From Acidobacteriota bacterium (GTDB lineage Bacteria; Acidobacteriota; Polarisedimenticolia; Gp22-AA2; AA152): DNA of 32,122 nucleotides. Below are positions 18,236-24,009 of this stretch, one piece after another. The stretch spans positions 1 through 32,122 of the forward strand of contig JAKEFJ010000126.1 of the NCBI GenBank assembly GCA_022616665.1, written 5' to 3'. The notes beneath the pieces were generated by a model, which was given only the letters and a program-made list of their open reading frames with translations, did no database searches and was not told the DNA's origin. Within the stretch, counting starts at the first letter, position 1. Each line of letters begins with the position of its first letter. Made by a program: the position numbers and the translations under genes.

Positions 18236-18344
18236 GCGGCGCAGTCTACCCCAGGGCAGCCCGCGCGCGCCAATGGAACGGTGTGGGCCCGCAAGCTTTC
18301 CAGCCTCATCGAAGACCTAGATGAGACTGAGTCGCAGTTTTATC

Positions 18345-18373
18345 TTGCACGCCGGAGCGTCTTCGGTTATCCT
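18345..18373 (+). promoter_or_regulatory. Sigma70-type promoter of the fur-led cluster
   Basis: TTGCAC-N17-TATCCT. Confidence 0.6.
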
Positions 18374-18386
18374 GCGCGCCTCATTT

Positions 18387-18401
18387 TGAGAATGATTCTC
18401 A
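18387..18401 (+). promoter_or_regulatory. Fur-box-like operator
   Basis: TGAGAAT-G-ATTCTCA, perfect 7-1-7 palindrome differing from the canonical TGATAATnATTATCA by one base per half site; sits just after the predicted start site and 20 nt before the fur ATG. Confidence 0.8.
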
Positions 18402-18421
18402 GTTTGTTAAGTGGAGGGGCC

Positions 18422-18871
18422 ATGAATCGCCAGAGCCGATTCAGTCAATTCCTGGAGAGTCGCAACCTACGGAGCACTGCGGGCCGAAGGGTCATGCTGC
18501 AGGAAATCTCAGCGCTGGGGGAGCGCCACTTTTCGGCGGAAGACCTGGTAGCGCGCTTCCGCCGGCGGGGGAGGGCTGTGTCCCGTGCGACCGTGTACCG
18601 GACCCTGGAGCACCTTCTGGCAGGAGGGCTGGTCCGGCGTCTGAGTCTGGGGCACAAGCACTCGCTCTACGAAAGCAACCTGGGACGGCGGCACCACGAG
18701 CACCTGATCTGCCTGCGCTGCGGAGAGGTCACGGAATTCGGCAGCGGAACCCTGGAGAGGCTCCTGGATGGCGTCTGCCGCCGGCGCCGCTTCGTGGCAC
18801 AAAGGCTCTCCATCCAGCTGTTTGGAATGTGCGCTCGATGTGCGGAGGAGGGGCGTGCCAAACGGAATTAG
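18422..18871 (+). CDS. fur: Fur-family transcriptional regulator
   Basis: ATG 18422 preceded by GGAGGGG; winged-helix SRATVYRTLEHLLAGGLVRRL; metal-binding HHEHLICLRCGEVTEFG and C-terminal CARC. Confidence 0.9.
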   Translation: MNRQSRFSQFLESRNLRSTAGRRVMLQEISALGERHFSAEDLVARFRRRGRAVSRATVYRTLEHLLAGGLVRRLSLGHKHSLYESNLGRRHHEHLICLRCGEVTEFGSGTLERLLDGVCRRRRFVAQRLSIQLFGMCARCAEEGRAKRN

Positions 18872-19946
18872 CCGCTCTTCGCGGTTCGCCGGCGCCAGAA
18901 TTGGTCTGTGCTTTCTGCTTCTCTCGGGCGGCGCTCAGGCCTCTGCCGTCGCAGGACCTCCCGCCTCGACGATCGTCCGGGCCCGATACCTCATGGGAAC
19001 CATCTTCCGAATCGAAGTGCCCGTGTCGGAAAACTTTTCTCCCACCGCGGCGGCGCTGGAGGAGGCGCTCGATGAGATCGGCCGCCTGGATGCTGTTCTC
19101 AGCAACTGGAAAAGCGACAGCGAGCTGTCTCGACTCAATGCCCGCGCAGGCAAGGGGGCGACTCGCGTTTCCCCTGCGTTGTTCGAAGCGGTCCGATCCT
19201 CCCTGGAATGGGCACGTGAAACGAGCGGCAGCTTCGACCCTACCGTGGAACCCCTCACACGACGATTCCGATCCGAAACCCTTCGTTTGAATCCCACGTC
19301 GGCCGGTCCCTCCGGCCAGCCAATGCGTCCTGCGGGCGGGTGGGACCGAATCGAGTTGAATCCTACGGCGCGCACGGTGTCCGTACCCGCCGGGGGGGGG
19401 CTGGACCTGGGCGGAATCGGCAAAGGTATGGCCCTGGATCTCGCGGCCAAAGTCCTCTCGGAGCGGGGGATTCACGACGCCCTGCTCGATGCCGGCGGAC
19501 AGCTGTTGGCCCTAGGGTCGCCTCCGGGGGAGCCGGGGTGGAGCGTGGCGGTGGCGGACCCGGTCAGCCGCCAGAGGCCGGCCTATGCCCTGATTCTCAG
19601 AGACGTATCGCTCGCCACCAGCGGTAACTCGGAAAGGCCCGGAGAGATTCTGGATCCGGCCACGGGCCGACCCGTCGAGGGACGAATCAGCGCAACGGCC
19701 GTGGCCCTGGACGCCACTTCCGCTGACGCGCTCTCCACGGCCCTGTTCGTGATGGGCCCGGAGCGAGGGGAGAGATGGGCCCGCGCCCGCAGCGATCTCT
19801 TGGCGCTCTTTCTCGAGCCTTCCAAAGTAGCAGGTAACCTGCCCCGGGTGAGCGGGACCTTGATGCCGGCTCCCCCTGGGCATTTGCTTTTCATAACAAC
19901 CCGTCCAAACGGCAACCTAAGGAGCTTGCATGTCGAGGTTCGGTAA
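18855..19946 (+). CDS. apbE: FAD:protein FMN transferase (ApbE), secreted
   Basis: GTG 18855 with RBS GGAGGAGGGG; signal peptide; RARYLMGTIFRIEV, LDLGGIGKGMALDLAAKVLSERGIHDALLDAGGQLLALG, LATSGNSE, EILDPATGRPV. Confidence 0.94.
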   Translation: MPNGISRSSRFAGARIGLCFLLLSGGAQASAVAGPPASTIVRARYLMGTIFRIEVPVSENFSPTAAALEEALDEIGRLDAVLSNWKSDSELSRLNARAGKGATRVSPALFEAVRSSLEWARETSGSFDPTVEPLTRRFRSETLRLNPTSAGPSGQPMRPAGGWDRIELNPTARTVSVPAGGGLDLGGIGKGMALDLAAKVLSERGIHDALLDAGGQLLALGSPPGEPGWSVAVADPVSRQRPAYALILRDVSLATSGNSERPGEILDPATGRPVEGRISATAVALDATSADALSTALFVMGPERGERWARARSDLLALFLEPSKVAGNLPRVSGTLMPAPPGHLLFITTRPNGNLRSLHVEVR

Positions 19947-21357
19947 TCGTTCCTGCGTTACGTTTCTGGCGCTTGTCCTCTCGGGAGTGTGGCCCGTTGC
20001 TGCCGGAGCGCAATCATCTCCCCAGCCCAGCCCGGCCAACCCATCCGCCGCCGAGTCGGATGACAGGCTGGAAGCCCTTGAAAAGAAGATTCAGGAGCTG
20101 ATGGCGGAGGTGGCGGCACTCCGGAAGGCAGCGCAGGCACCTCCGAGCACGCAGATCGAGGAGCTGGAGAAACAGATCGATGCCCTGACGCGGGAGATCG
20201 AGGCTCTGAAGATTGGCGAGGCGGCTGCGCCCACAGCGGGCCCCTCGAGACACGGATTTGGTCCCGCGGCTTCCAAGGTCTATCAGGTGCGGGAGGGAGT
20301 CTCGCTGGGCGGCTACGGCGAGATGGCCTATCTGGACCCTGCCGGAACGAACGATGCCGGAGGGGCCTCCGGTGGAGCGGACCGGCTGGACATGCTGCGC
20401 GCCGTCTTCTACTTCGGCTACAAGTGGAACGACAGGATACTGTTCAATTCTGAAGTCGAGTACGAGCACGCCACCACGGGCGAAGGCGCCGAAGAGAAGG
20501 GCGAGGTGTCGGTGGAATTCGCCTACCTGGACTTCATGTTCAAGCAGGGGTTCAACGCCCGTGCAGGACTTCTCCTGCTTCCCGTGGGTATCATCAACGA
20601 GAAGCACGAGCCGACCACCTTCCCTGGAGTGTTGCGACCACAGGTGGAGCGTGTGATCCTTCCCACCACCTGGCGGGAAAACGGAGCCGGAATTTTCGGA
20701 GAAACCCAATGGCTCGCTTACCGCGTCTATCTGGTGGCGGGACTGGACGCCTTGGGCTTCTCCGCCCAGCAGGGGATTCGCGGTGGGAGACAAAGCGGCT
20801 CGAACTCCCTGGCCAACAACTTCGCCCTGACCGGCCGGCTGGATCTGACGGGTGTGCAAGGATTGCTGGCGGGCGTCTCCGCCTACTCAGGGGACTCCGG
20901 CCAGGGGCAAATTCCCGCCGATGCCCGGGTCACTTTGTATGACGTTCACGCGCAATACCAGTGGCGGGGGTTCGAGGGGCGCGGACTCTGGACGCGCGGC
21001 TCGATCGAGGACACCGCGCAGATCGACCAGGCGTTGGGCATTCCCCCCGGCAGCGACGAATCGGTTGGAGAACACCTGAAGGGATGGTACCTCCAGGCCG
21101 AGTGGGATATCCTTTCGCTTCGCAAAATGAGTCGCCAGGTGCTGGCCCCGTTCTTCAGGTACGAGGCTCTGGATACGCAGGACGGTGTGCCGGCGGGATT
21201 TCTCGAGAATCCGGCATTCCAGCAGCGGATTCGGACCCTGGGACTGACCTGGAAGCCCATTCCCCAGGTGGTCCTCAAGGCTGATTACCAGGACATCGAT
21301 AACGGGGCGGGAACGGGAGTGGACGCGCTCCATCTGGGGTTAGGCTGGATCTTTTAG
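19930..21357 (+). CDS. Outer-membrane porin-like beta-barrel protein with N-terminal coiled coil
   Basis: Signal peptide, coiled coil (LEALEKKIQELMAEVAALRKA), then alternating amphipathic strands ending in ...LHLGLGWIF with terminal Phe. Confidence 0.75.
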   Translation: MSRFGNRSCVTFLALVLSGVWPVAAGAQSSPQPSPANPSAAESDDRLEALEKKIQELMAEVAALRKAAQAPPSTQIEELEKQIDALTREIEALKIGEAAAPTAGPSRHGFGPAASKVYQVREGVSLGGYGEMAYLDPAGTNDAGGASGGADRLDMLRAVFYFGYKWNDRILFNSEVEYEHATTGEGAEEKGEVSVEFAYLDFMFKQGFNARAGLLLLPVGIINEKHEPTTFPGVLRPQVERVILPTTWRENGAGIFGETQWLAYRVYLVAGLDALGFSAQQGIRGGRQSGSNSLANNFALTGRLDLTGVQGLLAGVSAYSGDSGQGQIPADARVTLYDVHAQYQWRGFEGRGLWTRGSIEDTAQIDQALGIPPGSDESVGEHLKGWYLQAEWDILSLRKMSRQVLAPFFRYEALDTQDGVPAGFLENPAFQQRIRTLGLTWKPIPQVVLKADYQDIDNGAGTGVDALHLGLGWIF

Positions 21358-21457
21358 CTGGCAATGCTGACACAGGTGATGCCTCGCTGCAAACAGTGGT
21401 AGGTCTGGGGGAGGCATTCCAAAGCCATCGTCGAGGGTGCGTCGGCGAGTAACTTCA

Positions 21458-21472
21458 GCCTGCCCGGCAGGC
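21458..21472. repeat. 7-1-7 palindrome upstream of the FMN-binding gene
   Basis: GCCTGCC-C-GGCAGGC. Confidence 0.6.
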
Positions 21473-21525
21473 ATTTCGCTTCCGCGGAGGGGCGAGACGG
21501 CGGGCAGGTGGGAGGTTGGTGAGAG

Positions 21526-22089
21526 ATGAGATCCGACCCGTGGAAATGGAAGGGCTGCGGACGAAAACTGGCTTTAACCTCGGTGCTGGCTCTGTCCAGT
21601 TCCCTTTGCATGGGAAAGGTGTACCTGACACAAGAGGCGGCGCTGAAGAGCGCTTTTCCGCCTCCCATCCAGGTGGAGCGCAGAACTCTGTTCTTGAGTG
21701 AGGAACAGGCATCGGCCGTGGAGCGCGAGGCCGGCTCAAAAATCACCGGCAGGGTCTTCAGCTACTACGTGGGAAGCGAGCAATCCGGAATTCGGGGTTA
21801 TGCCTATTTCGATACGCACCCGGTGCGCACGCTTCCTGAGACGGTCATGGTGCTCCTGGCGAGTGATGGCGCAATACGGCGGGTGGAAATTCTCTCCTTC
21901 TCGGAGCCCGAGGATTATTTTCCCCGGGAGGCCTGGCTCGGGCAATTCGCCGGGAGGAGCCTGGATGCCGATTTGGCAATTCGACGCGGCATTCGTAACC
22001 TCTCGGGCGCGTCGCTGACCGCCGAGTCGATCACGGCCGCGTGCCGGAGAATTCTCGCGCTGCATCGATTGGCGATGGGGAGCAAGTGA
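21526..22089 (+). CDS. Exported FMN-binding-domain protein (likely ApbE substrate)
   Basis: Signal peptide; GIRGYAYFDTHPVRTLPETVMVLLASDGAIRRVEILSFSEPEDYFPREAWLGQFAGRS; C-terminal SGASLTAESIT resembling the flavinylation motif SGA(T/S)xT. Confidence 0.85.
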   Translation: MRSDPWKWKGCGRKLALTSVLALSSSLCMGKVYLTQEAALKSAFPPPIQVERRTLFLSEEQASAVEREAGSKITGRVFSYYVGSEQSGIRGYAYFDTHPVRTLPETVMVLLASDGAIRRVEILSFSEPEDYFPREAWLGQFAGRSLDADLAIRRGIRNLSGASLTAESITAACRRILALHRLAMGSK

Positions 22090-22595
22090 TCAGCCGCTTC
22101 GAGAAGATCCTCCTCATCACCACGGTATTCCTGACCGGCGGCACCGGTCTCGCCTACGCCTGGATGAAATACCTGATGAAAAGCGCCGATCCTTTCTCGG
22201 TCGTGAACCACCCCTGGCAACCGTTCCTGCTTGCAGCCCATGTCTTGGCAGCCCCGGCGCTGCTCTTTGCGTTGGGCCTCATCACGCGGGAGCACATCGT
22301 GGGAAAGTACCGGGATCCCAAGGCCAGGAGGGGAAGGAAGACCGGGATAGTCCTGGCCTGGATTCTCCCGCCCATGGTGGTCACAGGCTATGGCCTCCAG
22401 GTGTTGACTTCCCGGGGCCCAAGGCAAATCATGGGATGGGCGCATCTGGCTGTGGGAGTACTCTTCCTGCTCCTGTACGGCGCCCATGCACTTCTGTCGA
22501 GTCCGGGAAAGGCGCGGGAGGGAGTGTCCCGCGCCGCGAGATCAGCGGCGCCTGTTGCGGCGCGGAGATTGAAGCGCCAGGGGGATGCCTTATAA
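22086..22595 (+). CDS. Four-TM membrane protein with conserved-looking membrane histidines (candidate b-type cytochrome/electron-transfer subunit)
   Basis: GTG 22086 overlaps the upstream stop (GTGA); four hydrophobic helices; His in HPWQPFLLAAHVLAAPALL and GWAHLAVGVLFLLLYGAHALL. Confidence 0.65.
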   Translation: MISRFEKILLITTVFLTGGTGLAYAWMKYLMKSADPFSVVNHPWQPFLLAAHVLAAPALLFALGLITREHIVGKYRDPKARRGRKTGIVLAWILPPMVVTGYGLQVLTSRGPRQIMGWAHLAVGVLFLLLYGAHALLSSPGKAREGVSRAARSAAPVAARRLKRQGDAL

Positions 22596-22596
22596 T
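22569..22596 (+). promoter_or_regulatory. Sigma70 promoter for the TPR gene
   Basis: TTGAAG-N16-TATAAT; the -10 overlaps the stop codon of the preceding gene. Confidence 0.65.
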
Positions 22597-22641: not shown

Positions 22642-24009
22642 ATGAAGACGATGAGCGAGAAATGGATTCGTTTCGGGTTGGCTTTGTTGGGCGGGGTGAT
22701 TCTGGTCCTCGCCGCCGGCAAGCCGGCTCGAGCAGAGGTTACCGCCAAGGTGAGCGGGACCGTGACGGACATCACTGGGGCGCCTCTTGAGAAGGTGGAG
22801 GTTTGGTTCGAAAACGCCACGATCCAGGGCAAGCGCGTTGGACCCGTCAAGACCAGCAAGAAAGGAAAGTACGTCTATCCCTATTTGGACATCGGCATCG
22901 AGAACCTCTGGAGGGTGGTTCCGAAACTGCCCGGATATCTGGTCCTGAAAGTCACCTGGAAGCTCATCGACTCCCAGCGCAACGAGCGCGCCGCCGACGA
23001 GCAGATCCTGAATACCAAGCAGGAGTTCCCATCAATCAAACCGGTCCCGGTGGGCGACGTGGGCGTCAATCAGATGGATTTTGTCCTAGTGAAGGAGGAA
23101 GAGTTCAACAACGCCTTGAGACAGGCCGTAGCCACCAAGCAGGGAGGGGGGGCGGCGCCTGCCGCCGCTGCGTCACCCGAACCCGGAGGGGCCGTCGCCC
23201 CCGCGGCTCCGGCCGCGGTAGCGCCCGCGACCCCGGCCGCGCCGCCAAGCCATACGGTCACCGAAGCGGTGGACTTGATCAAGGCGGGAAAGAGCGATCA
23301 GGCCGTACCCATATTGAAGGAATACTTGGAGAAGACTCCCGAGAACGCGGCCGTCCAATTCACCCTGGGGAAGGCTTATATCAATACGAAGCAATTCGAT
23401 CTGGCCATCCCGCCTCTGCAGAAGGCCCTGGCGCTCAAACCAGACCAGCCGGGTGCCCACTTCTATCTAGGCATTGCGTATTCCCAGATGGGGCAGGATG
23501 CGGAGGCTTTGAAGGAGTTCGAAGCGGAGATTCCCATCAGCCCCGATCAAGATGCCGCCTATTCCAATGCGGCTGCCATTTATCAGAAGCAGGGGAACCT
23601 GAACAAGGCATTGGAGTATTACAAGAAAGCCGCGGAGATCGCCCCCAATCGTCCCGAGCTGCACGCGAGCATGGCGGCGATTTACGAAAAGCAGGGGAAC
23701 CAAGCCGCCGCCCAGGCGGAGTACAAGGCTCTGGCGGCAGCGGATCCCGAGCATGCAGCCGTAACCTGGTTCAATATCGGCGCCATTGCTAAGAACAGCG
23801 ATCGGAATGAGGAAGCCATTCGTGCCTTTCAGAAGGCGGTGGAGCTGGATCCGGCGTATGCCGCGGCCCACAAGGAGCTGGGGTACGCGCTGGTGAAGCA
23901 GGGGGACTTCAAAGGGGCCGTGGCCCAGTTCAACAAGTACCTGGAGCTCGCACCTAAGGCCCCCGATGCCGGTGAGATTCGAACGATGGCCAAGCAGCTC
24001 AGCCAATAG
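22642..24009 (+). CDS. Exported carboxypeptidase-regulatory-like plus TPR repeat protein
   Basis: ATG 22642 with RBS AGGAG; signal peptide; KVSGTVTDITGAPLEKVEVWFENA; Ala/Pro linker; multiple TPRs (AAIYQKQGNLNKALEYYKKAAEIAPNRPEL). Confidence 0.88.
   Translation: MKTMSEKWIRFGLALLGGVILVLAAGKPARAEVTAKVSGTVTDITGAPLEKVEVWFENATIQGKRVGPVKTSKKGKYVYPYLDIGIENLWRVVPKLPGYLVLKVTWKLIDSQRNERAADEQILNTKQEFPSIKPVPVGDVGVNQMDFVLVKEEEFNNALRQAVATKQGGGAAPAAAASPEPGGAVAPAAPAAVAPATPAAPPSHTVTEAVDLIKAGKSDQAVPILKEYLEKTPENAAVQFTLGKAYINTKQFDLAIPPLQKALALKPDQPGAHFYLGIAYSQMGQDAEALKEFEAEIPISPDQDAAYSNAAAIYQKQGNLNKALEYYKKAAEIAPNRPELHASMAAIYEKQGNQAAAQAEYKALAAADPEHAAVTWFNIGAIAKNSDRNEEAIRAFQKAVELDPAYAAAHKELGYALVKQGDFKGAVAQFNKYLELAPKAPDAGEIRTMAKQLSQ

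Follow-up and report, generated by a model that had tools for sequence, protein, structure and literature searches.

Gene clusters that link flavinylation to iron are known (PMC8238504). PepSY-like systems combine ApbE with DUF2271, DUF4198, and PepSY proteins, and Fur represses them in Shewanella as well as in Caulobacter (PMC8238504, PMC3751524). The Caulobacter ApbE/DUF2271/DUF4198 cluster has been tabulated as iron-responsive and Fur-regulated, with changes of ∼12- to 51-fold (PMC3751524). In P19/FTR1 (FetMP-Fet) uptake, Gram-positive bacteria use FMN_bind proteins such as SifE and Gram-negative bacteria use thioredoxins (PMC8238504, PMC10783030, PMC5449479). An FMN_bind protein is part of the Sif iron system of Bifidobacterium (PMC5449479). 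DUF4405 proteins and the ferrosome protein FezC bind heme b (PMC11334425). In addition, a Fur-controlled porin, psp, has been predicted in Geobacter metallireducens and Desulfuromonas, where a role in iron transport was proposed (PMC545781).

The locus described here lies in a 32,122-nucleotide contig of an Acidobacteriota bacterium, the whole of which was analyzed (the window). Five genes on the + strand encode, in this order, a 149-amino-acid Fur-family regulator (18,422–18,871; Pfam FUR, 4.3e-27), an ApbE FAD:protein FMN transferase (18,855–19,946; Pfam ApbE, 1.9e-60), an outer-membrane porin (19,930–21,357; assigned with AlphaFold2 and Foldseek), an exported FMN_bind protein (21,526–22,089; assigned from the Pfam matches of its relatives and its acceptor motif), and a four-helix membrane protein (22,086–22,595; assigned with AlphaFold2, Foldseek, and hhalign). 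The apbE gene begins with a GTG codon preceded by GGAGGAGG, and the four-helix gene also starts with GTG. The fur/apbE, apbE/porin, and FMN_bind/four-helix junctions overlap by 17, 17, and 4 nt, exactly as recorded in a first-pass annotation made from the sequence alone. The best explanation for this locus is that Fur represses an assimilatory iron reductase module, a reading to which we give a probability of roughly two in three.

Two features near these genes were missing from the first-pass annotation. A gap of 168 nt separates porin and FMN_bind. The five genes are likely to be carried on a single transcript; since the gap provides room, a second promoter is possible before FMN_bind. A weak hairpin in the gap is within the expectation from shuffled sequence. 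The other feature is a gene for a TPR protein whose N-terminal domain is CarboxypepD_reg-like (22,642–24,009, + strand), which begins 46 nt past the four-helix gene and follows the operon in ∼12 loci, all from close lineages. It is likely a sixth operon gene in its own lineage and peripheral to the system. A promoter-like TTGAAG-16-TATAAT element is present ahead of it at 22,569–22,596. At the far end of the window, the product of positions 2–2338 contains multiple copies of a MopE-type putative metal-binding motif (Pfam E = 1e-44).

To follow the operon across genomes, the porin served as the scan query; the FMN_bind alignment held no stretch conserved enough for a collection scan. The porin scan of GTDB genomes found at least 579 relatives, and 80 loci were kept. 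Their titles name Acidobacteria, Gemmatimonadota, Planctomycetota, Elusimicrobia, Ignavibacteria, KSB1, Bacteroidia, Verrucomicrobia, Delta- and Gammaproteobacteria, and Bdellovibrionales/Oligoflexia. After removal of near-duplicates, the locus set comprised 101 nonredundant porin loci from ∼10 phyla, mostly metagenome bins in which related lineages are not independent. One cluster (c22) proved to be an artefact of out-of-frame translation and was excluded. Because the porin was the query, the locus statistics are conditioned on it: FMN_bind lies downstream from the porin in 97 of 101 loci, the window-type four-helix protein is downstream in 71, and fur is upstream in 15. The five genes are therefore co-conserved to different degrees, with a core made up of the porin, FMN_bind, and the membrane partner. 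FMN_bind homologs were found in 86 of 297 genomes of a phylum sample. Among 53 genomes tested for the two families, 27 encode both porin and FMN_bind, two encode FMN_bind alone, and none encodes the porin alone (counts 27/2/0/24; Fisher p = 4e-13).

Regulation by iron is indicated by the DNA upstream of the operon. A perfect 7-1-7 palindrome, TGAGAATGATTCTCA (18,387–18,401), is located 20 nt ahead of the fur start, which bears out the Fur box originally noted at this promoter. A second Fur-type 7-1-7 palindrome, TGAGACTGAGTCGCA (18,322–18,336), lies 65 nt upstream of the first, and the same palindrome precedes the operon in close relatives. When up to two mismatches are allowed, 66 of the 101 loci have the box TGAGAnTnAnTCTCA ahead of the operon, with 90 matches in 299 kb of upstream sequence versus 14 in 1128 kb elsewhere in the same loci (24-fold enrichment). 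This pattern had been picked after a first look at the data, and hence a second ranking of 7-1-7 palindromes was made with no prior pattern. The same box family supplied the top match, with TGAGACT, TGAGAAT, and TGAGATT half-sites ranking near the top. Half-sites TGAGACT, TGAGAAT, TGAGATT, and TGAAAAT were present in 23, 10, 8, and 6 loci, against a background of 0–1 matches.

Fur-type boxes are enriched also at loci that have no linked fur. Because the box is present where fur is unlinked, the feature that generalizes is the operator rather than a dedicated fur, and the earlier view of a dedicated Fur regulator as a hallmark of the system, given its occurrence upstream in just 15 loci, does not survive. 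The organism's own assembly (2.82 Mb), on which genome-wide tests were run separately for each family or pattern, contains five box matches at ≤1 mismatch. Two are at the operon, two are inside long open frames, and one is located 19 nt before a second fur gene (fur2), which makes this the sole other noncoding box in the genome. A 7-1-7 operator at the promoter, shared with iron genes, is thus well supported by computation, and Fur would repress the operon through it. As judged by sequence comparison, the defining parts of the system are this operator and the porin–flavoprotein pair; the linked fur is not one of them.

The window Fur has a FUR domain with a metal site and structural cysteines according to a ligand table. 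It retains H33, E81, H88, H90, and the four structural cysteines (Escherichia coli numbering), and H125 is replaced by leucine. The Fur of a genus-mate (L031) has lost H33, H87, H88, D89, and H125, leaving a degraded metal site; this loss of ligands suggests relaxed constraint on the linked fur. ApbE, which has a signal-peptide-like N terminus, is the only ApbE found by a genome search of its own assembly. An apbE gene is near the porin in 75 of 101 loci (53 upstream, 22 downstream). The apbE of the other 26 loci, which have none nearby, may be encoded elsewhere in the genome.

The likely substrate of ApbE is encoded in the same operon. Although the window protein matches Pfam FMN_bind below the cut-off (E = 0.0017), 26 of 27 aligned family members match this model. 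A PF04205 search of the organism's own genome was empty because the window protein scores below the threshold. The protein carries the flavin-acceptor motif SGAS, with Ser163 as the acceptor (codon 22,012–22,014), and serine or threonine occupies the flavin position of the GA/GS[ST] acceptor in all 99 aligned flavoproteins. Thus apbE adjoins a predicted substrate with an [S/T]GA[S/T]-like motif, as in ApbE flavinylation clusters in the sense of Meheust 2021. From its sequence, the FMN_bind protein is probably a candidate for covalent attachment of FMN at Ser163 by ApbE. In a genus-mate (L032/L071), ∼22 residues of the FMN_bind domain are missing (PEDYF...LDAD) and the frame is open, which reflects either a true deletion or an assembly error.

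The four-helix protein resembles a small membrane cytochrome. Its AlphaFold2 model (pLDDT 93.6) gives Foldseek matches to cytochrome b6, the cytochrome b of bc1, STEAP2, and hydrogenase cytochrome b (E ∼0.1, probability 0.9–1, TM ∼0.5). Five histidines (H42, H52, H70, H120, and H134) do not vary among 26 sequences and are conserved at 90% or more in a set of 35; the near-invariant H52, H70, H120, and H134 sit in helices 2 and 4. The protein falls below the hmmscan cut-off for PF14358 (DUF4405; E = 0.11), and hhalign aligns it to DUF4405 over the last two membrane helices with E = 7e-6 and a probability of 84.5% (unrelated controls, E ≥ 0.2). These results point to a remote similarity to DUF4405, and we infer that the protein is a candidate DUF4405-like b-type cytochrome that would bind heme. 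NapH-, MsrQ-, PepSY-, DsbD-, and Nqr/Rnf-like families are absent from the Pfam matches listed for 26 cytochrome relatives, and such modules are likewise absent from the recurrent neighbors scanned.

In 21 of 101 loci, a different histidine-bearing 4TM family (motifs LLExxHFHxF...L.HL and GWLVRF) follows the flavoprotein instead. Examples are L116:9808–10,416 and L143:10,043–10,549, with 19 further loci, and the family is found in methanotrophs, KSB1, Ignavibacteria, and others. No Pfam match was obtained for the two members scanned.

Pfam assigns the porin to no clear family, and weak similarity to Porin_O_P is seen in seven of 27 relatives. The AlphaFold2 model of the window porin (pLDDT 87) shows a barrel of 16 strands and, at the N terminus, a coiled coil, and Foldseek matches it to OmpU, OmpF, and OprP (E = 1e-12 to 1e-10), which is the fold of general porins. 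The porin may admit small ferric complexes.

Additional genes connect the operon to iron import. FeoB is encoded as a co-directional neighbor at 11 of the 101 loci, spanning at least five named groups, where ∼0.4–1 would be expected (related lineages are not independent); one locus (L075) has the order fur, feoB, apbE, porin, FMN_bind, cytochrome. Searches of the organism's own assembly, which is 89.5% complete, detected neither FeoB nor Nramp. In this genome, the third noncoding box precedes fur2, and the genes after fur2 encode an FTR1-FtrD fusion, a pair of FtsX permeases, and an ABC ATPase. The ATPase (L200, G000:C198, 930–2033, − strand) carries a fused iron-dependent-repressor (DtxR-type) metal-binding/dimerization domain as its C-terminal part, and is possibly an iron-sensing transporter ATPase.

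The main competing explanation is that the operon encodes a Fur-controlled extracytoplasmic reductase for another substrate, such as a siderophore, heme, copper, or an oxidized periplasmic compound. In that case, control by Fur would belong to a general response to iron starvation. The general-porin fold is compatible with this idea, as is the fact that most of the 101 loci have no adjacent iron importer. However, the extra neighbors that do recur are FeoB and Fur rather than other metal or TonB systems, and the same box stands ahead of the FTR1 operon in the organism's own genome. We therefore regard a different substrate as unlikely, though the most credible of the alternatives. Large same-strand neighbors considered as TonB receptors or metal transporters proved to belong to unrelated families or had no matches.

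Somewhat less probable still is an iron-sparing or respiratory chain, in which, at low iron, quinol electrons would reach an external acceptor by way of the flavoprotein rather than through cytochromes rich in iron. Substitution of flavin for iron has been proposed, and several respiratory systems use flavinylated proteins (PMC8238504). However, a membrane partner with five near-invariant histidines looks like a heme b protein, so that little iron would be spared. Moreover, no terminal reductase gene recurs among the neighbors scanned, and the FeoB and FTR1 linkage favors assimilation.

An improbable variant concerns the outer membrane. MtrA docks inside MtrB, and by analogy the flavinylated protein could dock at or inside the barrel, such that porin and flavoprotein form a physical conduit. 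Such a complex would leave porin and FMN_bind almost always paired from phylum to phylum, also where the membrane partner is a different one, and the pairing found here fits. If the conduit were real, then the carrier that brings electrons to iron, on the cell surface or beyond it, would be flavin and not heme. Finally, a chance grouping of unrelated genes behind fur, for which the scarcity of upstream fur (15/101) might be cited, is refuted by the comparative data, since gene order and operator recur in ∼10 phyla and the co-occurrence p is 4e-13.

An assimilatory iron reductase would work as follows. A drop in cytoplasmic Fe(II) would release Fur from its box and allow the operon to be expressed. 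The porin would let small ferric complexes into the periplasm, and ApbE would modify the FMN_bind protein with FMN at Ser163. Quinol-derived electrons would reach this flavin by way of the four-helix cytochrome, and the flavin would convert Fe(III) into Fe(II), to be taken up by an inner-membrane importer, FTR1 in this organism and FeoB in others. The operon anatomy, Fur operator, protein families, acceptor residue, histidines, barrel fold, and association with iron importers are well supported by computation. The source and direction of electrons and the choice of Fe(III) as substrate are presumed. The first-pass proposal of iron-responsive, flavin-based electron transfer in the envelope remains the best-supported reading, given the Fur operators, FeoB neighbors, conserved acceptor motif, FTR1 operon under the same box, b-cytochrome-like partner, and 16-strand porin.

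No paper describing the exact gene combination was found in the open-access literature, the scope of this search, which agrees with the initial impression that it is not a recognized named system; the gene set seems not to have been described before as one system. It may mark a route of iron acquisition that is widespread in poorly cultured phyla and apparently has no name. The analysis also suggests a function for the 16-strand porin family and the DUF4405-like cytochrome, and a possible supply of reduced iron to Gram-negative bacteria that requires no siderophore receptors.

Among described systems, the PepSY-like clusters share with the operon a Fur-controlled ApbE, an exported flavinylated protein and a heme-type membrane partner (both predicted here), and a link to iron assimilation. 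In contrast, the operon has FMN_bind in place of DUF2271, a four-helix DUF4405-like protein in place of PepSY, and its own 16-strand porin. The apbE-associated DUF4405 cytochromes and FezC resemble the four-helix protein in their four paired histidines, in being small membrane proteins near apbE, and through the remote profile match. They differ in that the window protein has four helices in one chain, not six, scores below the Pfam DUF4405 cut-off, and is partnered by FMN_bind rather than Flavodoxin_4; a porin and Fur box are unreported in PMC11334425. As in P19/FTR1 uptake, an FMN_bind redox protein would serve an iron importer, and in the organism's genome the same box precedes an FTR1-FtrD-FtsX-FtsX-ABC operon. 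However, this FTR1 is at another locus where no P19 is seen, and the operon adds a porin and a b-type cytochrome candidate. The psp porin, by its description, likewise has upstream Fur boxes, weak Porin_O_P similarity, and a proposed role in iron transport; unlike the operon porin, it is described with no link to a flavoprotein or ApbE (PMC545781). Assimilatory reduction of iron in the envelope, as a working mode, is better supported than membership in any single named system, and the operon is best read as a variant of the flavinylation-based iron systems exemplified by the Caulobacter PepSY/DUF2271 cluster and P19-FTR1.
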